DNA of 64,000 bases from Chthoniobacterales bacterium (GTDB taxonomy: Bacteria > Verrucomicrobiota > Verrucomicrobiia > Chthoniobacterales > DASVRZ01), in the NCBI GenBank assembly GCA_039930045.1, contig JBDSQB010000003.1:1-64000 (forward strand), read 5' to 3'. The notes below the pieces were generated by a model. It did no database searches, was not told where the DNA came from, and worked only from the letters and a program-made list of their open reading frames with translations. Positions 4,227 through 50,084 of this stretch are shown here, one piece after another (the stretch's first letter is position 1; every line of letters starts with the position of its first letter). The position numbers and the translations under genes were made by a program.

Positions 4227-5147
4227 TTAGAAGGATATGGTGATGCCGGTGTGGAGCTGGATCAGATCCTTGTCGCGCTTGGAGGTGGCTCCGAGCAGGA
4301 CGTTGCCATCGAGCAGACCTTCATTGTTCAAGTGATAGTATTGCACGCCCGCATAGATGCCCCAGTGACCGTAGCTGGCGGGGATGAAGGTGAGGGGAGT
4401 GCTAACTTTCAACTCCGTGGAAATCACCGCCGCGCCCGAACCGCCATCGGAACCATCGAGGCGCTGGTAGAAGTCGGACGCCACGAGGTTAACAAAACTC
4501 GGCAACTCGACTTTGACCGGACCGACGTTGAAAGTCGGATCGATGCCCAGCGAGAAGTAGTAGCTGGAAGTCGCACCTAACACGACGGGCAGTTTGTCGA
4601 TGTCGCGGAAATATTCCACGTATGGATTGATCGAGAATCCCTTGATGAAGTGATCGTGATAGGTCAGTTTCAGGTCGAGGTTAGTCGAGGTGTCGTAGGA
4701 ATTTGTCTGGCTGTTAAACGCGGTGTAAAACGCATCGAACTGAAAGTCCTGAAATGCCTTGAAAGTGAGGCCGACGATCGGGTCAATCTCGTTCCACTGA
4801 CGTGGAGTCGCGCCGGACTTGCGGGTGTGCCAGCTATTCCAGACGCCGGTGGTGAGACTAACATCGTTGAGCGGACCGGTTTTCGAGGAATAGAGATCCC
4901 AGAAAAGCAGCAGGAGCGGCTGAAAGATCAGGCCCTGGTTTTCCGTGTCGAGACCGCGCGGCGTGATGTAGTGGTCGGAGAATTCGAGTTGAATCAGTCC
5001 GTGGATTTTCAGGCCGGGTGATTCTTCGAGAATGGGCTTCGCCATTTTTTCATCGGAGATCGGGCCGGCAAGAAGCACTGGAGTGGCGGAGGCCGCCATG
5101 GCGCAGAAGGCTAGCGTTTTGGAAACAGTTTTGAACAACTTAGTCAT
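4227..5147 (-). CDS. Outer-membrane beta-barrel protein, TorF-like porin
   Basis: This 306-residue exported protein starts with a signal peptide (basic TKLFKTVSK, then a hydrophobic Ala-rich core to about residue 28). Alternating-polarity strands with aromatic girdle residues follow, and it ends in ITISF, with the terminal Phe typical of barrels assembled by the BAM complex. The composition resembles TorF/Gcw_chp-type putative porins. As first gene after the sigma-54 promoter it probably admits the operon's substrate across the outer membrane (inference). The start is chosen because the signal peptide begins there. Confidence 0.72.
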   Translation of the reverse strand: MTKLFKTVSKTLAFCAMAASATPVLLAGPISDEKMAKPILEESPGLKIHGLIQLEFSDHYITPRGLDTENQGLIFQPLLLLFWDLYSSKTGPLNDVSLTTGVWNSWHTRKSGATPRQWNEIDPIVGLTFKAFQDFQFDAFYTAFNSQTNSYDTSTNLDLKLTYHDHFIKGFSINPYVEYFRDIDKLPVVLGATSSYYFSLGIDPTFNVGPVKVELPSFVNLVASDFYQRLDGSDGGSGAAVISTELKVSTPLTFIPASYGHWGIYAGVQYYHLNNEGLLDGNVLLGATSKRDKDLIQLHTGITISF

Positions 5148-5206
5148 AGGTATGTTAGTAGTGTGTGGTTTAGGCTGTGGGATTGCTCCCGGACGCTGGC
5201 TTCTTT

Positions 5207-5222
5207 AGCAACGCCTGTGCCA
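5207..5222 (-). promoter_or_regulatory. Sigma-54 promoter of the ureide/biuret operon
   Basis: The minus strand reads TGGCACAGGCGTTGCT, matching the -24/-12 consensus TGGCAC-N5-TTGCW with GG and GC at the required spacing. It lies 59 bp upstream of the barrel-protein ATG and downstream of the NtrC-type gene, so it can serve only the 1-5147 operon. It requires an enhancer-binding activator; the obvious candidate is encoded just upstream. Confidence 0.82.
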
Positions 5223-5306
5223 CTTCTAACAAAGAAATCGAGCCGCTGATCATCAGCGACTTACAAAGAATCCTGCGGCGATGTCTTCATCGCCGACTGT
5301 TCCATT

Positions 5307-5332
5307 TGTTGCACTGCGCAACAGGTGCAACA
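5307..5332. promoter_or_regulatory. Dyad, probable enhancer (UAS) for an NtrC-family activator
   Basis: A perfect inverted repeat TGTTGCAC-N10-GTGCAACA lies about 85-110 bp upstream of the -24 element, the usual distance for a sigma-54 enhancer. The half-sites resemble the TGCAC/GTGCA halves of NtrC sites. It begins 5 bp beyond the stop codon of the adjacent activator gene. Confidence 0.62.
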
Positions 5333-5336
5333 CCTG

Positions 5337-6755
5337 CTAATTCCGGCGATAGATGCGGCTGCGGTTCACTCCTAACAATCGCGCCGCCTCGGCGACGTTG
5401 CCGCCAGTTTGAGCCAGGGCACGCTCGATGAGAACCTCCTCGGCTTTCTCCAGATTCAGAGGGAGGTCGCCGACTAGAATTTTTGATTCGAGTTGCACTT
5501 CTTTCTGATGTGTAGGAGTTGCAGACAAATGGAGGTGTGCGAGTTCGATGGCGCCGCCGCCGCTAGCGATGAGGGCGCGCTCGATGAGATTTTTCAGCTC
5601 TCTAACATTGCCGGGGAAATCGCAGGCGGCGAGCGCCTTCAACGCCTCTGGGCTCAGGGCCGGAGGGCGGAGTCCCATTTCAATGGCGAAGACTTTGAGA
5701 AAGTGCGTGGCCAGCAGCGGAATGTCCTCCCGGCGCTGGCGCAACGGCGGCGTCTCCACGGTGTAGCGGGCGAGGCGGAAATAGAGGTCGCGTCGAAATG
5801 CGCCCGATCCGATCTGCGCGTCGAGGTCGGCATTGGTCGCGGCGAGCACGCGGACGTCCACTTTTTTTGCTTGCGTCGCGCCGATGGGAGTCACCAGGCC
5901 ATCCTCCAGCACACGCAGTAATTTCGCCTGCAGCGTCGCGGGCATGTCGCCGATTTCGTCCAGAAACAACGTCCCGCCGTGAGCCAACTCGAAGTAGCCC
6001 TTGCGATCCGCCGTCGCTCCGGTGAACGACCCACGCAGGTGCCCGAAGAACATCGACTCGGCCAATTCATTTGGGATAGCGACGCAATTCACGGCGACGA
6101 ACGGTCCTTTGGCCCGCGTGCTGTCGTGGTGAATCGCCCTCGCGACGAGTTCTTTTCCCGTGCCGCTTTCGCCGGTGATGAGCACGCTGGTGTTGGCAAA
6201 TGGCTGGAGCCGCTCAATGTCGCCGAGAATCTTCCGCATTGTCTGACTTTCACCGACGAAACCCGTCATGCCCCAGCGTTCGTCCTCGCGATCGGTGATC
6301 GTGGAAAGGCGGGCGTCGGAGCGTTCGCGGCGCTCAATTTCCTGGGCCAACTCGCGGTTTTTCTGCATCAGGTCACGAGTCAGCCGGGCGATTTTTAGAT
6401 GCGTCTCCACGCGAATGAGCACTTCCTCGGCTTCGAAGGGTTTCAAAATATAATCCACTCCGCCAACTCGGAACCCGTTCAGGATGCTCGCTGTTTCCGC
6501 TCGTGCCGTGATGAAAATCACCGGTATGTCGCGGGTCGCCGCATGACGCTTCAACTCGCGGCAAATTTCAAACCCGTTGCTGCCGGGCATCATCACATCG
6601 AGCAGGATGAGATCGGGAATCGCCTTCGCCGCAATCTTCAGCGCGACCTCGCCGCCGGGAGCCGTGAGCACCTCGTAACCATGCGGCTCGAGAGTGCCGG
6701 TGAGCACGTCGAGATTGGCCGGAGTGTCGTCGGCGATGAGAATTTTCTCGCTCAT
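5337..6755 (-). CDS. Sigma-54-dependent response regulator, NtrC family
   Basis: This 472-residue transcription activator has a receiver domain (phosphoacceptor D53 in LLDVMMPG, K106 in LKPF), a coiled linker (about 120-160), an AAA+ domain with Walker A GESGTGKE (195-202) and Walker B GGTLFLDE (260-267), and a Fis-type helix-turn-helix at the C-terminus (AARLLGVNRSRIYR). The sigma-54 contact loop reads GSFTGA (242-247) rather than GAFTGA. Its start overlaps the kinase stop by 4 bp, so they form a two-component pair. A sigma-54 promoter and dyad lie directly downstream, so it probably activates the operon at 1-5147; the pilin promoter at 13586 is a second possible target. Confidence 0.93.
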   Translation of the reverse strand: MSEKILIADDTPANLDVLTGTLEPHGYEVLTAPGGEVALKIAAKAIPDLILLDVMMPGSNGFEICRELKRHAATRDIPVIFITARAETASILNGFRVGGVDYILKPFEAEEVLIRVETHLKIARLTRDLMQKNRELAQEIERRERSDARLSTITDREDERWGMTGFVGESQTMRKILGDIERLQPFANTSVLITGESGTGKELVARAIHHDSTRAKGPFVAVNCVAIPNELAESMFFGHLRGSFTGATADRKGYFELAHGGTLFLDEIGDMPATLQAKLLRVLEDGLVTPIGATQAKKVDVRVLAATNADLDAQIGSGAFRRDLYFRLARYTVETPPLRQRREDIPLLATHFLKVFAIEMGLRPPALSPEALKALAACDFPGNVRELKNLIERALIASGGGAIELAHLHLSATPTHQKEVQLESKILVGDLPLNLEKAEEVLIERALAQTGGNVAEAARLLGVNRSRIYRRN

Positions 6756-9331
6756 TCGGGTCTAACTCCGCTCGGGATTTGCGCGACGATTTTCAGGATC
6801 GTCTCCATGTCGTAACTGGCCATAAACTCGCGCAAATGCTCCGCCAGCCGCTGCTCGCGCGGGCCGAGTGCGTGGAGTTCGCGCAGGCAATTTTTCAAAA
6901 CCGTCGCGCTGTGCAGCTCGGCGGCCATCATCATGCGCAACGCCAAATCTTCGGGGAGAACGATCTGCGCCAGATCCAGCGGCGGCGTGTCGGGATGTTC
7001 GGCAGTGGCGCTTTCATCGTAATCAAACTCGACTTGGAGCAGATTCTGGAGGCATTGCCAGACCTGCTCGGCGCGGATCGGTTTCCCGATAAAATCATCG
7101 CAGCCCGCCTTCAGGCAAGCCTCGCGCTCGTCCTGCAAAACCGACGCCGACATGGAGACGATGTGCAAGCCTTTGTGTCGCGCGACCAGAAGTTGCGTGG
7201 CCTCGATCCCGCTCATTCCGGGCAGCCGCATGTCCATGAAGACAATATCCGGCGTCTCCATGGCGACCGCAGCGAGTGCGGCGGGCCCGCTGTCCACCGT
7301 CCGCACTTCGCAGCCGATACTCTCCAGCATGTGCGAAATGACGGCCCGATTTTCCTCGATGTCGTCCACGACCAAGGCTCGCACCCGGCTGCCCGGCGCA
7401 AGGCTCCTAACCATCCGGCTGCGTCGCGGCTGCAACGAGCCCGCGACCGGCGTTTGCAGTGGGATGTTGAAGAAAAATGTCGAGCCCGCGCCTTCATCGG
7501 ACCAGACCTCCAGCTCTCCGCCCATCAACTCGACCTGACGCCGCGCGATGGCGAGTCCGAGTCCGGTGCCGCCGCGATGAACGGCTGTCGCACCCTGATG
7601 AAACGGCTCAAAGACCGACTTCTGCAACTCCGGCGCGATGCCGATGCCGGTGTCGCGCACTTCAAACTGGCAGCGGCCTTCCTCCTGCGGCTGGATGCGC
7701 AGCGTGACCAGCCCCTGATCGGTAAATTTCACCGCGTTCCCGAGGAGATTGATCAACACCTGACGCAGTTTTCCCTCGTCGCCATCTACGATTCGCCGAT
7801 CCTCGCCGCCGGTCCATTCGATGCGCAGTCCGAGGGATTTTTCCTCGCACGGCTGCTGAAACATGGCGGCCATTTCGCGCGAAAGCTCGACCAGATCAAA
7901 CTCGGCGAGTTGCAGTTCCATGTGACCCGCCTCGATTTTCGAGAGGTCGAGAATTTCATTCACCAGATGGAGCAAATGCTGGCCGCTGCTGGCGATGGTG
8001 GCCACCGCATCGCGCTGAAATGCCGGCAGCGACGCCGCGCGCTGGAGAATCTGGCAATAGCCGAGAATCGCATTCATCGGGGTGCGAATTTCGTGGCTCA
8101 TGTTAGCCAGAAAGAGAGATTTCGCCCGGTTTGCCGCCGCCGCCGCTTCCTCGGCTTGCTTGCGGACGCTGATCTCGCTGGTCAGCGCCTCATTGGCGCG
8201 CGCCAGTTGCTCAGTCCTTTCCTGAACGCTGATCTCCAGACTGTCGCGGGCGAGTTTCAATTCCTCCTCCGCTCGCTTGCGCTCGGCGATTTCGTTCGAG
8301 AGTTCCATCGTTTTCTCGAAGACAGAATCCTCGATTTCCTCCTGACGCCGCTGCGAGCCGCGGACCAATGACGCGCCCAGCCCCGTGCAGGCGAGGCCCG
8401 CTCCGAGCACCATCCACGACCAATGCGTCGCGCGTTGGGAAATGAATTCCGCCGAGGGCTGAAAATTAACCTGCCAGTTGCGCCCGGCAAATTCGAGATT
8501 CACGAGTTGATCGAACTCAGAGTCCGGTTTCTCCACGGGCTGACGATAAATGCTAACATCCTTCTCGCCCATATCCTGGATCGAGACGCCGAGGCCGATT
8601 TTTTGCAGCGGACTGAGGGCGCTTTCCACCAGATTGGCGATTCGGAAAACAGCGACCGCAAACCCGGCAAACGTGGCGTGATCCGTGCCCTGATAGAGCG
8701 GCAGGAAAACTAGAAAACCGGGATCGCCCTGGGCGAGTTCGATCGGAGCGGTGGCGATGGCTTTGTTAGTGTGGCGCGCGAGTTCGAGCGCGGCGCGACG
8801 GCGCTTCTCGGAGCCAACGTCGAAGCCGAAAGCGGCCTTGTTTCTCTCCAGCGTCTCAAGAAAATAGACCGGATAATATTCGTCGCGAGTCGCGGCGGTT
8901 ATGAGATGATGCTCCGTTTCCTCCTCAGTAAAATGGAAGTCGGCATAGCCGTCCTGATGCGCCCTTTCCTCCCAAGCCTCGCGTTGGCCGAGCAGAACGA
9001 GCGGGTCCCAGGCGAGCCCTTGCAACTCCGGCTGCCGGAGCAATGCATCGGCCACAAAGTCATGAAATTCGGCCCGTGTGACTACTTCGCGCGCCGCATA
9101 GAAAGAGCGAATCGAGTGCAGTACTTCCATCGAGCGCAGAATCTGGCTGCGCAGAATTTCTACGCGATCCGCCGTTTGCTTTTGCACCTGCTCGTGGAGC
9201 ATTTCTTTTTCCATGCGGGCGACGAGCACCCAGAGCACAACGGAAAACGCTGTGCCCGCAAGCAGGACACTCAAAAAGACGGCATGACGTCGCACGTGCG
9301 GAGTGGTAATCAGATGCGGACGGCGCGTCAA
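6752..9331 (-). CDS. Hybrid sensor histidine kinase with CHASE domain
   Basis: This 859-residue membrane kinase has TM1 at 17-38, a periplasmic CHASE-type sensor at about 60-290, TM2 at about 303-323 and a coiled coil at 330-400. HisKA carries H413 in NMSHEIRTPMNAILGY. The ATPase domain has the N-box near 528-536, DTGIGI at 560-565 and the GGTGLGLAI box near 587-595. A C-terminal receiver has D700 in FMDMRLPG, followed by about 85 residues without an obvious HPt motif. CHASE domains bind small ligands outside the inner membrane, so it may sense the compound imported by the downstream operon (inference). It overlaps the response-regulator gene and starts 8 bp after tatD. Confidence 0.93.
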   Translation of the reverse strand: MTRRPHLITTPHVRRHAVFLSVLLAGTAFSVVLWVLVARMEKEMLHEQVQKQTADRVEILRSQILRSMEVLHSIRSFYAAREVVTRAEFHDFVADALLRQPELQGLAWDPLVLLGQREAWEERAHQDGYADFHFTEEETEHHLITAATRDEYYPVYFLETLERNKAAFGFDVGSEKRRRAALELARHTNKAIATAPIELAQGDPGFLVFLPLYQGTDHATFAGFAVAVFRIANLVESALSPLQKIGLGVSIQDMGEKDVSIYRQPVEKPDSEFDQLVNLEFAGRNWQVNFQPSAEFISQRATHWSWMVLGAGLACTGLGASLVRGSQRRQEEIEDSVFEKTMELSNEIAERKRAEEELKLARDSLEISVQERTEQLARANEALTSEISVRKQAEEAAAAANRAKSLFLANMSHEIRTPMNAILGYCQILQRAASLPAFQRDAVATIASSGQHLLHLVNEILDLSKIEAGHMELQLAEFDLVELSREMAAMFQQPCEEKSLGLRIEWTGGEDRRIVDGDEGKLRQVLINLLGNAVKFTDQGLVTLRIQPQEEGRCQFEVRDTGIGIAPELQKSVFEPFHQGATAVHRGGTGLGLAIARRQVELMGGELEVWSDEGAGSTFFFNIPLQTPVAGSLQPRRSRMVRSLAPGSRVRALVVDDIEENRAVISHMLESIGCEVRTVDSGPAALAAVAMETPDIVFMDMRLPGMSGIEATQLLVARHKGLHIVSMSASVLQDEREACLKAGCDDFIGKPIRAEQVWQCLQNLLQVEFDYDESATAEHPDTPPLDLAQIVLPEDLALRMMMAAELHSATVLKNCLRELHALGPREQRLAEHLREFMASYDMETILKIVAQIPSGVRPE

Positions 9332-9339
9332 TGTTAGTT

Positions 9340-10104
9340 TTACTGGAAGAGACGATGGAAATTATTGCGCACCGCAAGCGCGAGATCGGCGACTTCCATT
9401 CCACGAATTCGCGCCAGATGCTCGTAACACGCGACGATGTTAGCAGGATGATTCGCCCCTGACTCGAGTGTGGCTTTTGCTAAGTGATCGGGGAGGTTCA
9501 TGCTCGGCGCGTCGGTTTCTACTAACAAACGCTCCAGCGGCAACTGGCGAAAGACTTCGCGCCGGGCCGCTTTTCGCTCGTGCAGAAAATGGCCGGAGAA
9601 GGAAAAATACGCGCCCATATCCAGGCACTCACGGGCGATTTCGATGGAACCCGACCAGGCGTGCAGCAAAAATCCACAGGCGGGCAGGGGATTGGTGCGG
9701 AGTATTTTCGTCAGCAGACCAAAAGCCTTCAGGCAATGAATGGTGGCGGGAATGTTTCTCTCGGCCGCCAATGTTAGCTGCCAGCGAAAAATTTCCTCCT
9801 GCGCCGCGCGATCCGGATCTTTCATCCAGAGGTCGAGTCCGATTTCGCCCAGACTCGATTGTGGCGTGGAGAGAAATTGATCGAGAGCCTTTTTCCAGTT
9901 TGCAGTGCGCCGGGCTAGAAACCACGGGTGCAATCCAAATGCAGGTCGAATCCACGGGTATTCAGCGGCCAATTCCTGAACGTGCGGCCAGTCCGCTTCC
10001 GTGGTGCCATTGACCACTGCCGCCTCCATTGGGAGTGAGGTTAGTATCGGCAGGGTTTCCGCCAGCAACGGGGCTTGCAGATGATTGTGCGCATCAATCC
10101 ACAT
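9340..10104 (-). CDS. tatD: TatD-family metal-dependent hydrolase
   Basis: This 254-residue TIM-barrel hydrolase has DAHNHL at residues 4-9, GLHPWF near 57-62, a Glu metal ligand in SLGEIGLDLW, TIHCLKAF, a LLHAWSG segment and LLVETDAP near the C-terminus, which together make the TatD metal site. Members act as Mg-dependent 3'-5' DNases or related phosphoesterases. It overlaps the sufE-like gene by 11 bp, and the kinase follows after 8 bp, an unusual pairing for a housekeeping enzyme. Confidence 0.88.
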   Translation of the reverse strand: MWIDAHNHLQAPLLAETLPILTSLPMEAAVVNGTTEADWPHVQELAAEYPWIRPAFGLHPWFLARRTANWKKALDQFLSTPQSSLGEIGLDLWMKDPDRAAQEEIFRWQLTLAAERNIPATIHCLKAFGLLTKILRTNPLPACGFLLHAWSGSIEIARECLDMGAYFSFSGHFLHERKAARREVFRQLPLERLLVETDAPSMNLPDHLAKATLESGANHPANIVACYEHLARIRGMEVADLALAVRNNFHRLFQ

Positions 10105-10495
10105 GGGCTCGAAAGGTTTGAATAACTCGCTCCAGCCCGTGCAATCGTGTGGGGCTGAGGATTTTATCGAGCCCGAGCGCTTCTAATAAAGTCGGATGAA
10201 AATCCCGCGCGTCGGCAATGTCTGCTCCGTGATAAAGCTCGACTAACAAGGCCACCAGTCCGCGGATCATGACGGAATCGGCGGCATATCGGACTTCCAT
10301 TCGATTCTCGGCGACTTGCACCCGCAGCCAGACTTGCGAGGAGCAACCCCGGACCAGCCATTCGTCGCGGCGTTCCTCGGCAGCGAGCTGTCGGTCGGCG
10401 AGTTTGAAGCTAATGATGGCATTTAGCCGTTCGTGCCGGTCCTCAATGAGCGAGTAGCGCTCGATTAGTTCGCTTTGCTTTTGCAGCAGGGTCAT
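10094..10495 (-). CDS. sufE: SufE-like sulfur acceptor protein
   Basis: This 133-residue cytosolic protein has the SufE fold. It carries the persulfide-accepting cysteine in VRGCSSQVWL at about residue 51, the conserved ADSVMIRGLVALLV helix and a C-terminal GLDKILSPTRLHGL segment. SufE accepts sulfane sulfur from a SufS-type desulfurase for Fe-S cluster assembly. The usual suf partners are absent from the window. It overlaps both neighbours, by 4 bp with the upstream membrane protein and 11 bp with tatD. Confidence 0.9.
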   Translation of the reverse strand: MTLLQKQSELIERYSLIEDRHERLNAIISFKLADRQLAAEERRDEWLVRGCSSQVWLRVQVAENRMEVRYAADSVMIRGLVALLVELYHGADIADARDFHPTLLEALGLDKILSPTRLHGLERVIQTFRAHVD

Positions 10496-11697
10496 TTGAT
10501 CATTTTCAGCGCCTGCATCAAGGGCATGGGCACCGGATCATACACGGCGTTCTTGATGAAGATGGTATCGTAATTGGATGTCTGGAAATAAACGATAACG
10601 ACTAACATCACGCTGAGAACAGCTTTCTGCGCCAGCGGTTTAGTTAGTGAATGGCTTAAGTCCAGCAATGGAATCGCCGCGAGATAGCAGAGCGGGAAAT
10701 CCCAGATCAAGGCGTAGCGAAGATTCATTCCGTAGCGCAGATTTCCCATGATGAGATAGCTGATGAGAATGAAGCCCGTGAAATACCAGGCGGTTTTTTC
10801 TTTGGCTCGAAACATTCCTCCAATGGCTAGCAGGACAACGGCGGGCGTGGTAAGAACCAAGTCGGAGAGATAACGAAACCATGGGCCGTCTCCCGTAGCG
10901 ATGGCGTAGGGCAGCACATAGGACATGCGGACGTTGAGGAGATAGGCGGTGAAGAGGGTGTCTGTGCCGCCGGCGGCTAATGTTAGGAGACAGGCTCCCA
11001 GCAATGGGCCGAGAAATGTCGCGATGAGCAGGGGCTTGGTGACGGTTCCGAGTTTGAGCCAGTGATTGGCGGCCAGAATTGCGAGAATGGCTAGATAAAC
11101 AAAGGCGGCGTTTTCCTTGGTGAGTACTAGAATGGCTAGAAAGCCTGCGTAGGCAGCGAGCCAGGCTTTGCTTTTGGCGTTTTGCAGCGCTTCCCAAAGA
11201 GCCCAGATGACGAAGAAAGTGATGGTGGCAAAGAAGCCGTCGATGAGCGCACGATGCGCCATGTAGAGTTGGAGCGGGGCGAAGGTCATCAAGGTTGTAA
11301 TCACCAGCGCCAGTCGTTTGCCGCCTAGTCTCCAGGCGAAAACGGCTGATCCGAGTAAGAGTAAAATGCTGGCCGCCGTGGAAATGGCGCGCACGGATTC
11401 CACGGATGAGGCGCCGGTCAGCCCGTGCCAAACGGCGGCTGACAATAAGAATGCAACTCGCGTCGGCGGCAGAAAGGCGATGGGAGCCTGTTTCTGATCG
11501 ATGATATACGCATTGACCATGTCCGGATAATGCGTCCAGCCACGGTGGCCGATTTGCTCGACGTATTGGCGGTAAATATTTTCGTCGAAGCCGACGCCTT
11601 CCTGCTTTTCAAAGGAATGAATGCGCAGGTAGATCCCGATGCCGACTAACAATACGAGGATCAGCATCCAGGTGAGGGAGAGTTTTTCTGTAGTCAT
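10492..11697 (-). CDS. GT-C fold membrane glycosyltransferase-like protein (ArnT/PMT type)
   Basis: This 401-residue protein has about 9-10 transmembrane segments starting at residue 8. The first periplasmic loop carries an acidic pair-like site in EGVGFDENIYRQYV (residues 34-47), the position of the catalytic or metal-binding acid in GT39/GT83 enzymes that use polyprenyl-linked sugars. It overlaps its neighbours by 4 bp on each side, so it is part of the 5337-13514 operon. Donor and acceptor are unknown. Together with the gene upstream it resembles the glycosyltransferases on the other side of the pilin gene. Confidence 0.7.
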   Translation of the reverse strand: MTTEKLSLTWMLILVLLVGIGIYLRIHSFEKQEGVGFDENIYRQYVEQIGHRGWTHYPDMVNAYIIDQKQAPIAFLPPTRVAFLLSAAVWHGLTGASSVESVRAISTAASILLLLGSAVFAWRLGGKRLALVITTLMTFAPLQLYMAHRALIDGFFATITFFVIWALWEALQNAKSKAWLAAYAGFLAILVLTKENAAFVYLAILAILAANHWLKLGTVTKPLLIATFLGPLLGACLLTLAAGGTDTLFTAYLLNVRMSYVLPYAIATGDGPWFRYLSDLVLTTPAVVLLAIGGMFRAKEKTAWYFTGFILISYLIMGNLRYGMNLRYALIWDFPLCYLAAIPLLDLSHSLTKPLAQKAVLSVMLVVIVYFQTSNYDTIFIKNAVYDPVPMPLMQALKMIK

Positions 11698-48236: not shown

Positions 48237-50084
48237 ATGAATGCGCCTGACGCTAGTGGCGAACCTGCAGGCTGCGCAGAGAAAATAAGGAAACTCCTGT
48301 GGATAACTTCGGCGGGAGGCCGGGGAAATCCATCCACAAGTTGTTCACAACAAGATAAATACCTCATTACACGCCATATAAGAATAACATCATACAATGT
48401 ATGTAATATAAAACAGAGGTATCACCGGAACGGGCGCAGAAAGCTGGAAGGTCCTTGCCGGACGGCAATCCCCGCTGACCAGTCATCCCACAGGGATGCC
48501 CTTCCCGTCGAAGATCAGAGGGCGCATGGATGCACCAACGGCGTGGATGCCGCGCCAGCGGCAGCCATGCCGTTTGGTTTATCTATAGTGTCATATCTCC
48601 CTAACACGGAAAACAGCCCTCTGGAGCCCTGTCATGATGTAATTACACTCGGAAAGAGCCTTCCTGATGGAATCGTCCATGTTTCAGAGGTTGTTCCCGC
48701 TGTCCTCGCTGACCTCGAAACGGCGGCCAGACTTATCCATGATTTCCCCGCCCCTGACTCTGGCGAGAATGGGCAGCGTAGCGAAAACAGCTCGTCGGAG
48801 ACAGAGTCAGGGGCGGATCAGGAAATTGTGGGTAAGTCGCGAATTGAGGCCGCGCCCTCGTTTGCAAATGAGAGCTTCGCTGGGGTGAAGTCGCCGCCGG
48901 GTCCTGTGCCGAAAACCTCGGCTCGGCGGTCAGCCCCCAAAATCCCAGTTGCTGACGTGCTGGCCAGAGTCCACAAGTTCGCCACCATGACGGCTGCCAT
49001 ACCGCTCACCCTTCGCACGGAAAAGGCCCGCCATGACCTCGAACACGACCTTTCCGAGTATCGGGACCGCCTCAACGAAATCCTCGAAATCGACTCCCTT
49101 CTTGGTGTAGAATCCAGCGTGCCAGTAACATCATACAATAACGGCCCCACCCTCGAAAACCGGGTCAATCCGTCTGTATGTAATATAAAACAGAGGTATA
49201 AGCGCAATGGACGGCGCATCGCCTCTCCAGCGGTCACGCTGCCAGTCGTGAATGGAATGAACGGTGTTGGGAGCTTGACCACAGAGGCCGCGCCAGCGGC
49301 CTCCGGTGGTCAGGTTCCCTTCCTTGTCTATTTAGAAACAACTCAATCCATTACGAGGGAAAGTGCTGCGGAAGGCCATTTTTCTTCGGACCCGGAAAAC
49401 CCCTCTTTTTGCCCTCCGTGTCTTACATCGGAGGCCAGACTTATCCATGATTTCCCCGCCCCGGCTGGGGTCGAGAATGGGCCCGGAAGGACCAGCTCGT
49501 CGGAGACGCCAGCCGGGGCGGATCAGGAAATTGTGGGTAAGTCGAGAGTTGCAGCCGCTCATCGCTTTCATGTCCTTGGGGGAAGTGACGCTCCCCGTGT
49601 GCCGTCCCTGTCTGCGCCAAAAACCTCGCAGGGGCGGTCTCGACGTTCCCATATCCCGGTTGACTCTGTCCTGGCTCGCGTTCACACGTTCGCCAAGATG
49701 ATCGACGCCATTCCGCTCTCTCTTCGCACTGAGGAGGCCCGCCAAGCCCTCCGAGTCGATGTTTTGGAGTATCGGGACCGCCTCAACGAAATCCTCGATG
49801 TCCGGGAGATCGTGGAGCTGCATTCCCTTCCATCCGTGCTTCCCTCGGCCCCTTTGATAACGTCATACAATAATGACGCCCCCCTCTCCACAGGGGTCAG
49901 TCCGTCTGTATGTAATATAAAACAGAGGTATCACCGGAACGGGCGCAGAAAGCTGGATGGTCCTTGCCGGACGGCAACCCGTCCCGATCAGCCGTCCCAG
50001 CGGGACGCCCTTCCCGGCGAAGATCAGAGGACGCATGGATGCCACGCCAGCGGCAGTTCATGCCCGATTTCGTTGCGCCAGTGA
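48237..50084 (+). CDS. Repeat-built open frame of unknown function (two modules); coding status uncertain
   Basis: This 615-codon frame contains two modules of 259 and 244 codons delimited by three A elements in the same frame. Each module has a RLIHDFPAP...GADQEIVGKSR stretch over a B hairpin and a helical segment (VLARVHKFATMTAAIPLTLRTEKAR...EYRDRLNEIL and its counterpart). In that helical segment, differences between the copies fall mostly at third codon positions (16 third, 7 first, 10 second by my count), which supports translation. The hairpins inside the frame covary as nucleic acid, which a normal gene would not need. The start is unclear; 48568 is an alternative ATG. I recognise no family. 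It could be a pseudogene made of nested repeats. Confidence 0.4.
   Translation: MNAPDASGEPAGCAEKIRKLLWITSAGGRGNPSTSCSQQDKYLITRHIRITSYNVCNIKQRYHRNGRRKLEGPCRTAIPADQSSHRDALPVEDQRAHGCTNGVDAAPAAAMPFGLSIVSYLPNTENSPLEPCHDVITLGKSLPDGIVHVSEVVPAVLADLETAARLIHDFPAPDSGENGQRSENSSSETESGADQEIVGKSRIEAAPSFANESFAGVKSPPGPVPKTSARRSAPKIPVADVLARVHKFATMTAAIPLTLRTEKARHDLEHDLSEYRDRLNEILEIDSLLGVESSVPVTSYNNGPTLENRVNPSVCNIKQRYKRNGRRIASPAVTLPVVNGMNGVGSLTTEAAPAASGGQVPFLVYLETTQSITRESAAEGHFSSDPENPSFCPPCLTSEARLIHDFPAPAGVENGPGRTSSSETPAGADQEIVGKSRVAAAHRFHVLGGSDAPRVPSLSAPKTSQGRSRRSHIPVDSVLARVHTFAKMIDAIPLSLRTEEARQALRVDVLEYRDRLNEILDVREIVELHSLPSVLPSAPLITSYNNDAPLSTGVSPSVCNIKQRYHRNGRRKLDGPCRTATRPDQPSQRDALPGEDQRTHGCHASGSSCPISLRQ
48298..48349. 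promoter_or_regulatory. Cluster of DnaA-box-like sites next to an AT-rich stretch
   Basis: A perfect DnaA box is present on the minus strand (TGTGGATAA, 48298-48306). CCATCCACA (48330-48338, two mismatches) and TTGTTCACA (48341-48349, one mismatch to TTATNCACA) follow. About 70 bp of AT-rich DNA lies beyond (48351-48420) in otherwise GC-rich surroundings. This resembles a replication-origin or DnaA-regulated site, but no dnaA, dnaN or partition gene is nearby. Confidence 0.4.
48391..48570 (+). repeat. Structured repeat element A, copy 1
   Basis: It begins with the hairpin CATAC-AAT-GTATG, continues with a TAATATAAAACAGAGGTAT-type AT-rich core and a CACCGGAACGGGCGCAGAAA segment, then three hairpins: TTGCC-GGAC-GGCAA, CATCCC-ACA-GGGATG (48484-48498) and TGCCGC-GCCA-GCGGCA (48548-48563). 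Copy 3 matches it almost base for base outside the stems. Confidence 0.85.
48730..48838. repeat. Hairpin element B, copy 1
   Basis: Imperfect outer arms (GACTTATCCATGATTTCC and its near-complement ending GTGGGTAAGTC) enclose a perfect 15-bp stem CCGCCCCTGACTCTG/CAGAGTCAGGGGCGG (48748-48762 with 48802-48816) and a loop with GAGAATGGGC and AGCTCGTCGGAGA. The two outer arms carry DnaA-box-like words, TTATCCATG (48733) and TGTGGGTAA (48827). Confidence 0.88.
49132..49303 (+). repeat. Structured repeat element A, copy 2 (diverged)
   Basis: CATACAAT (49132-49139) and GTATG (49176-49180) are here separated by an extra 36 nt that can form its own hairpin (ACGG...ACCC/GGGT...CCGT). The AT-rich core through 49199 is identical to the other copies. 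Further on, CAGCG-GTCA-CGCTG and a perfect 8-bp hairpin GAGGCCGC-GCCA-GCGGCCTC (49284-49303) replace the stems of copies 1 and 3 while keeping the GCCA loop. Confidence 0.75.
49438..49543. repeat. Hairpin element B, copy 2
   Basis: It has the same outer arms and loop words as copy 1, but the inner stem is CCGCCCCGGCTGG/CCAGCCGGGGCGG (49456-49468 with 49509-49521). Both arms changed together relative to copy 1, so pairing is preserved. DnaA-box-like words recur at 49441 and 49532. Confidence 0.88.
49864..50063 (+). repeat. Structured repeat element A, copy 3
   Basis: CATACAAT and GTATG are separated by a 36-nt insert with a CCCC...GGGG hairpin. The AT-rich core is at 49908-49931. The hairpin CGTCCC-AGC-GGGACG (49993-50007) matches copy 1 with a compensatory A-T to G-C change, and TGCCAC-GCCA-GCGGCA (50040-50055) has one mismatch. 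The 732-bp spacing from copy 2 and 777 bp from copy 1 to 2 are both multiples of three. Confidence 0.85.

Follow-up and report, generated by a model that had tools for sequence, protein, structure and literature searches.

A probable tandem array of ~0.75-kb rolling-circle satellites at the putative dif site of a Chthoniobacterales genome

The subject of this report is a repeat locus at positions 48,237 to 50,084 of a 64,000-nucleotide stretch of DNA (hereafter the window) from a Chthoniobacterales bacterium of the phylum Verrucomicrobiota (GenBank assembly GCA_039930045.1, contig JBDSQB010000003.1, positions 1 to 64,000 of the forward strand). An original prediction had described it as three in-frame copies of a multi-hairpin element, A, sharing an AT-rich core and separated by two B segments. 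Judged from its sequence and its occurrence in relatives, the repeated core is dif, the XerC/XerD site of this genome; by the same comparison, the first copy alone is the intact dif, and copies 2 and 3, both split, mark the right ends of inserted units. As a whole, the locus is probably a tandem array of small rolling-circle satellites without a replication protein (Rep) of their own, integrated at dif by Xer recombination and consisting of two units, E1 and E2, and a remnant; the units would then probably be two to three tiny, parasitic DNA circles.

Regarding the layout, the 25-bp core TGTATGTAATATAAAACAGAGGTAT is identical at 48398-48422, 49175-49199 and 49907-49931 (coordinates are on the plus strand unless stated), and a 23-base piece of it has three exact matches in the window, against 0.00 expected by chance. 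The three copies of A were confirmed, with CATACAAT starting at 48391, 49132 and 49864, as were the core-to-core distances of 777 and 732 bp, each divisible by three. The A-B-A-B-A order as a tandem repeated unit is likewise supported, with copy 2 of A much reduced: copy 1 (48398-48533) and the corresponding part of copy 3 (49907-50042) have 136 nt in common at 90% identity, copy 2 has kept about 39 nt plus a hairpin with a GCCA loop, and the B segments are 76-85% identical where they can be aligned. In the whole 3.5-Mb genome, the core is confined to this one locus; three copies at one locus rule out a dispersed family of repetitive extragenic palindromes (REP), bacterial interspersed mosaic elements (BIME) or miniature inverted-repeat transposable elements (MITE).

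As for the core, the intact dif lies at 48384-48415, with a left half TAACATCATACAAT and a right half, made of the centre and one arm, ATGTAATATAAAA. A search with copy 1 and its flank in 57 genomes of the order matched nine, the window's own and eight others, and these eight matches extended over 27-38 bp only, in unrelated surroundings. A sequence-only model built from the nine sites and run on 213 genomes of the order found the site in 137 of them at E ≤ 0.05 (about 10 chance matches are expected among the 213 at this threshold), with a best E ≤ 1e-4 in 90; by a hand count from the result table, 129 genomes matched exactly once and 8 more often. Scanning 84,980 species for the exact pattern returned 15 stretches; every record concerned bears Chthoniobacterales, Spartobacteria, Chthoniobacter or Verrucomicrobia in its title. 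The core is read as dif because relatives each carry it, nearly always once, in unrelated flanks; the conserved part spans 28-33 bp, and the consensus ATAACATCATACAATATATGTCATATAAAAT resembles dif sites in its size, its AT-richness and its partial symmetry. In Legionella, dif is likewise conserved while the neighbouring DNA is not (PMC9765430), and dif has been predicted in three Verrucomicrobia genomes (PMC3025954). The genome has the matching Xer genes, one at C2:156267 that scores above the XerD cut-off and one at C2:351802 whose best match is XerC, below the XerC cut-off. When host genes shared around dif were sought, serA was found within the dif locus of one genome only (L210).

With respect to the original prediction, a search of the genome and its relatives had been expected to reveal either dispersed copies of a mobile palindromic family or, at a single locus, a dedicated RNA or protein. 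Neither outcome describes the core, which behaves as a chromosomal dif. The unit does look mobile, but as an Xer-integrated rolling-circle satellite and not as a REP-like palindrome or a structured RNA. The expectation that the element would be kept in close relatives failed for A as a whole and was borne out for its dif part.

The position of the site was assessed in two relatives. G041 is a single contig of 3.76 Mb, and in 20 sampled stretches of 20 kb its GC skew was mostly positive before dif and mostly negative after it; the octamer GGGNAGGG was distributed 49:16 before dif and 2:14 after (Fisher p 5.8e-6). In G047 the same octamer gave 31:6 before and 7:32 after (p 1.1e-8), and the sign of the GC skew changes there. 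Transcription runs toward dif for rpoB and the 16S rRNA gene in G041 and for rpoB in G047. Skew, octamers and gene orientation in both genomes fit a site at the replication terminus, and the coding-strand bias agrees with the proposed replichores in G041. A replication origin, suggested by the DnaA boxes described below, was rejected on the sign of the skew, the direction of the octamers and the orientation of the rRNA and rpoB genes. Weak matches to the dif model also lie at ~49-55% of the record length (lengths rounded) in three single-contig genomes of the class, G225, G257 and G274, a position that fits dif if the records begin at the origin; the weak matches of G241, G229 and G345 fall outside this range.

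The order of parts in the window is intact dif, E1, right half, E2, right half, remnant. Unit E1 (48398-49174, 777 nt) runs from dif to the next right half-site and is delimited by this topology; E2 (49175-49906, 732 nt) is delimited by the repeat alignment as well. The right end of E1 is the right half-site of copy 2 (49175-49199), and that of E2 the right half-site of copy 3 (49907-49931). The left half of dif is also present in both split sites, at 49126-49139 (14/14 identical) and 49858-49871 (13/14), and it is separated from the right half by the 36-nt inserts at 49139-49174 and 49871-49906, as the original prediction had it. A copy 3 (49907-50064) may be what is left of a third element, or it may be the flank that originally lay to the right: it keeps the GCCA hairpin, with neither a nick region nor a right half-site after it.

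Insertions of the same polarity recur in other genomes. A total of 101 dif loci, composed of 20 from a first set, 80 better-scoring model matches (not all 137 genomes) and the window, were fetched and oriented; 99 of them have a full dif, L086 and L095 being those without. Each genome's own 16-base right half was then searched with at most two mismatches. In the 99 loci, all 11 extra right halves outside the window were downstream of dif and on the same strand (binomial p 1.6e-4 against the share of bases); none was upstream, none on the opposite strand, and none was found with a reversed control. Contig ends within 1 kb of dif were also more frequent downstream (15) than upstream (5) in 80 loci, with 6.5 expected on each side, which is the pattern that repeated inserts would cause. 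Finally, left-half copies occur upstream of dif in two other genomes (L079 and L087), from which a mirror-image class of insertions may exist.

A precedent is a filamentous prophage in a relative, G105. Its insert at dif is 8.1 kb long and is closed by a right half with 16/16 identity at +8081; the topology is that of the window's array, an intact dif at one end and a partial site at the other. The insert encodes a PF23343 Rep and a 689-residue protein in which Zot (E 2.3e-12) and secretin (E 6.6e-34) domains are fused; from the phage context, the Zot domain is taken to be the phage assembly ATPase. In G047, a 16/16 right half stands at +21998, and the extra length of that insert is apparently a Mu-like insertion, judged from reading its translations. 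The filamentous prophage loci at dif are L193 and L302 (G105) and L303-L304 (G047).

As for replication, the GCCA-loop hairpin, which the original prediction had correctly seen kept three times (48541, 49279 and 50033), and the motif after it are, by sequence comparison, a rolling-circle origin. In E2, the hairpin with the GCCA apex (49269-49319, z -5.08) is followed by the nick region CTTCCTTGTCTATTTAGAAACAACTCAATC (49319-49348), identical over 30/30 nt to a stretch inside the replication gene of a 1284-bp Salmonella plasmid (E 2e-4). With 51 nt around the nick region, 23 plasmid records matched at E ≤ 10, 22 of them 0.7-2.7 kb long, and 12 of 5,426 E. coli genomes matched the nick-region query at 80-99% identity; the Reps of three such small plasmids match PF23343 and the phage rolling-circle family phrog_3419. 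PF23343 was found in 20 of the 213 genomes of the order at E ≤ 0.01, 15 of them above the cut-off, and the window's genome has one match, at C1:30911-31192. Directly before this gene, a perfect long hairpin is followed by CTTGTCTATTAACAAACAACTC, which is 20/22 identical to E2, and the hairpin-plus-nick layout is also present at several other Rep genes of the order. In E1, the hairpin (48534-48578, z -5.44) precedes a divergent nick-like stretch (48579-48600) and shares the apex CCGCGCCAGCGG (CCGC-GCCA-GCGG) with the origins beside Rep genes in L300 and L301. The GCCA hairpin is read as an origin hairpin because several Rep-gene origins of the order show the same layout, two of them with the same apex. 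The E1 nick stretch had no convincing match among plasmids. A nick-region-like sequence, CCTTCCTTGTCTATTTAGTAA, was also seen in the cyanobacterial Kovacikia minuta megaplasmid (L275, 3001-3027), with an E of 3 that may be chance.

The folding data support the multi-hairpin description of A in part. The GCCA hairpins stand out against shuffles (z -5.4 and -5.1), but A as a whole (z 0.31 and -0.16) and both 36-nt inserts (z -0.53 and -1.02) fold no better than shuffles. The reported change from CATCCC/GGGATG (48484-48498) to CGTCCC/GGGACG (49993-50007) is real, but that hairpin exists in two copies only. The B segments contain hairpins of ~105 nt, absent from the original prediction, that fold far better than shuffles as single-stranded DNA, at 48730-48838 in E1 (z -6.47, with a conserved 4-nt ATCA bulge) and at 49438-49543 in E2 (z -8.20). 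Between the two, 40/40 pairs are kept, 5 of them with a compensatory change; 19 of 500 shuffles equal this result and slid versions do not, and the support from covariation is modest because just two sequences exist. The long hairpin is probably the second-strand (single-strand) origin of the satellite or its packaging signal.

These parts suggest the following cycle. Each unit opens with the right half of dif, that is, the central region and one arm, and ends at the next right half; insertion thus leaves an intact dif at the left and a half-site at the right. Each full unit carries an origin-like hairpin with the GCCA apex and then a nick region, clear in E2 and divergent in E1. A Rep acting in trans, for which the HUH-type protein at C1:30911-31192 is a candidate, would nick a unit inside the array; rolling-circle copying would proceed to the next copy and release a single-stranded circle of one unit, which XerC/XerD would integrate at dif next to the older copies. 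By splitting the right-hand sites, the 36-nt insert may keep the units from leaving, in analogy to LME-1 of Legionella, which is stabilised by a modified right-hand site (PMC9765430).

Elements with such a life style are known. The satellites of the class of integrative mobile elements exploiting Xer recombination (IMEX) integrate at dif by means of the host XerC/XerD, form tandem arrays, have a rolling-circle origin and use the functions of another phage (PMC4246890, PMC5357621). Like the window's array, they rebuild an intact dif on one side and leave a partial site on the other, and E2, unlike the divergent E1, also resembles them in having a rolling-circle origin that is, by sequence, compatible with a helper Rep. 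The window's units differ from them in belonging to another phylum, in their size of ~0.75 kb, in having no recognised Rep or structural gene, and in a partial site that retains the left half 36 nt away. TLC, in contrast to these units, has its own replication module, and rolling-circle replication from tandem copies, RS1 included, is described for CTXphi (both PMC4246890). UPphi and its kin, dif-integrated filamentous phages of Enterobacteriales, have tandem repeats that agree with dif in only its first fifteen or so bases (PMC7307601), similar to the 16-base right halves found here; they are full 7.5-kb phages with structural genes, unlike the window's units. Tiny rolling-circle plasmids, such as the Salmonella 1284-bp arp plasmid (NZ_CP149236.1), those of E. 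coli (1.8-2.7 kb) and those of Aeromonas, share the 30-nt identical nick region and have a PF23343 Rep; unlike the units in the window, those whose records were examined code for this Rep themselves. No dif half-sites were noticed in these plasmids, in which no search was aimed at them.

A dif/pdif module of the Acinetobacter type is a gene module between two complete Xer sites; this candidate was rejected, because the window has one complete site plus split or half-sites. The likeness to the Acinetobacter modules is that of small Xer-site-bounded units in arrays (PMC12907356), and the differences are the single full dif with half-sites in the same direction, the lack of any recognised cargo, resistance or other, and the origin inside the unit. 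IMEX and other dif-integrated satellites are already known; what is new here is the size, the phylum, the missing Rep and the split sites. In the literature on Verrucomicrobia and dif, covered by titles and abstract openings with few subscription journals, nothing was found that describes such satellites. If the assignment is right, dif is identified throughout an order whose members are abundant in soil and fresh water and mostly uncultured, and it is used by Xer-hijacking elements that include far smaller units as well as a filamentous prophage. Units of ~0.75 kb with an origin, a hairpin and an attachment site only would rank among the smallest natural Xer-integrating satellites, being in effect natural phagemids.

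Three other explanations of the array need to be weighed. The units could be immobile host DNA beside dif, duplicated through homologous or illegitimate recombination; the 90% identity of A copies 1 and 3 and the ~76-85% identity of the B segments look like an old local duplication, and the units are seen at this locus only. This is unlikely, given that the dif half-site ends are 100% identical over 25 bp although the interior has diverged, that same-side half-site insertions with unrelated contents recur in unrelated genomes, and that E2 has a plasmid-type rolling-circle origin. A second possibility is that the array is the gene of a 615-residue repeat protein and that hairpins and half-sites are by-products of its repeats. 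A 615-codon open frame of uncertain coding status (48237-50084) does cross dif and all the units, the open run of 627 codons exceeds the shuffle maximum of 297 (246 with tiled shuffles), and the unit offsets (777, 738, 708, 705, 708, 711 and 732) are all multiples of three; since both unit lengths are divisible by three, each unit as a circle would be an endless frame. The differences between copies lean slightly to third positions (19, 16, 27 and 5, 4, 8), and two helices are predicted in the repeat. However, the frame would read through dif and its DnaA box, the excess at third positions is slight, the structure prediction has low confidence (pLDDT 58), and the protein has one weak match (E 0.0019) and no other homologue in the 213 genomes of the order, none in phages or viral contigs, and no Pfam family; the repeat protein is thus judged very unlikely. 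Finally, the three copies could belong to a structured RNA family or be riboswitch-like. This would account for the compensatory changes, seen both in the A hairpin of copies 1 and 3 and in the long hairpin of B, and the G-U pairs favour the plus strand. The RNA reading was rejected as hardly credible: dif itself makes up the most conserved 25-33 bases, A folds no better than shuffled sequence, no Rfam family reached its gathering score in the 64 kb (below it there were only chance-level matches to miRNAs and the like), and the same pairing is explained by single-stranded DNA hairpins of a rolling-circle element.

Several observations weigh against a tandem array of Xer-integrated satellites at a terminal dif. 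The array is known from assembled sequence alone, with neither an empty site nor a circular form, and the 615-codon frame is not explained by satellites. Apart from the origin motif, the repeat unit had no counterpart among viral contigs, phages or plasmids, and neither the dif nor the nick pattern had a match in viral contigs. The nick stretch of E1 is divergent and A copy 3 has the hairpin without a nick region; the candidate helper Rep at C1:30911-31192 is barely above its cut-off (30.9 versus 27.8 bits), and its placement on a phage or plasmid would be conjectural. Unlike the sites of relatives, copies 2 and 3 retain the left half 36 nt away. As for the terminus, GC skew does not clearly change at dif in the window's own contig, where the octamers are only weakly biased (5:3 and 8:20, p 0.11), the coding-strand bias of G047 disagrees with the proposed replichores, and dnaA of G041 is 864 kb from dif and not opposite it; no change of skew sign was seen around this dnaA in the sampled stretches.

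A further feature of the dif locus is a DnaA box on its left side. In the window, a 15-mer, CACAAGTTGTTCACA (48335-48349), includes a 9-mer that begins 43 nt ahead of the dif motif, and an inverted DnaA-box-like TGTGGATAA is present at -86 (48298-48306, minus strand). In a set of 91 dif loci, which includes 10 of the 20 from the first set and has genome G057 twice, TT(A/G/T)TNCACA occupies position -43 exactly in 33 loci and position -44 in another, with just one further match in the same direction within 200 nt upstream; inverted boxes occur between -112 and -86 in 10. The box is present in 34 of the 53 loci outside family f8 (8 families) and in none of the 38 within it. In the window's genome, the 15-mer pattern occurs at dif and ~270 nt before the apparent start of dnaA, and nowhere else. 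Six genomes were searched whole, and CACAAGTT(D)TNCACA was found in four, only at dif (G000 and G071) or just upstream of dnaA (G000, G041, G047 and G071). A model of box plus dif run on 384 genomes of the class gave end-to-end matches mainly in this order, and outside it mostly the dif part alone, weakly.

The fixed spacing between box and dif argues for a joint protein-DNA complex at this predicted site. A tentative extension, which is rather doubtful at present, is that the Chthoniobacterales dif is a compound site, where DnaA bound at the fixed 43-nt box would gate or time Xer recombination and so link initiator and terminus directly; the satellites would insert on the other side of dif, so the control region with the DnaA box would stay intact. 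In the literature on DnaA boxes and dif, covered to the same extent as above, no report of an initiator-terminus link was found. A DnaA box at a fixed place beside dif is unexpected, and it makes a direct action of the initiator at the terminus testable. The dif loci of family f8 (L033, L035, L042, L051, L056 and others), which are without the DnaA box, often have GGTGTTG..CCGATT..GTATGG directly to the right of dif.

Minor observations concern the contents of other insertions. In L086 (G007 C16, ~4800-10700 of the locus), five to six right-half-like sites stand 0.5-2 kb apart, away from that genome's full dif; small open frames occupy the intervals, and the conserved flanks of the sites read GGTGTTG... 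or GGCCAGCGGTTGGC...; this array resembles a gene-cassette array, in a comparison with integron attC sites made by eye only. Likewise by eye, related short proteins (containing LDTAISLWFTEGDPISIHTLA and IESAIMLWFQTAESVSIHTLA) were recognised in the dif-adjacent insertions of L077 (9861-10454) and L092 (9562-10134).

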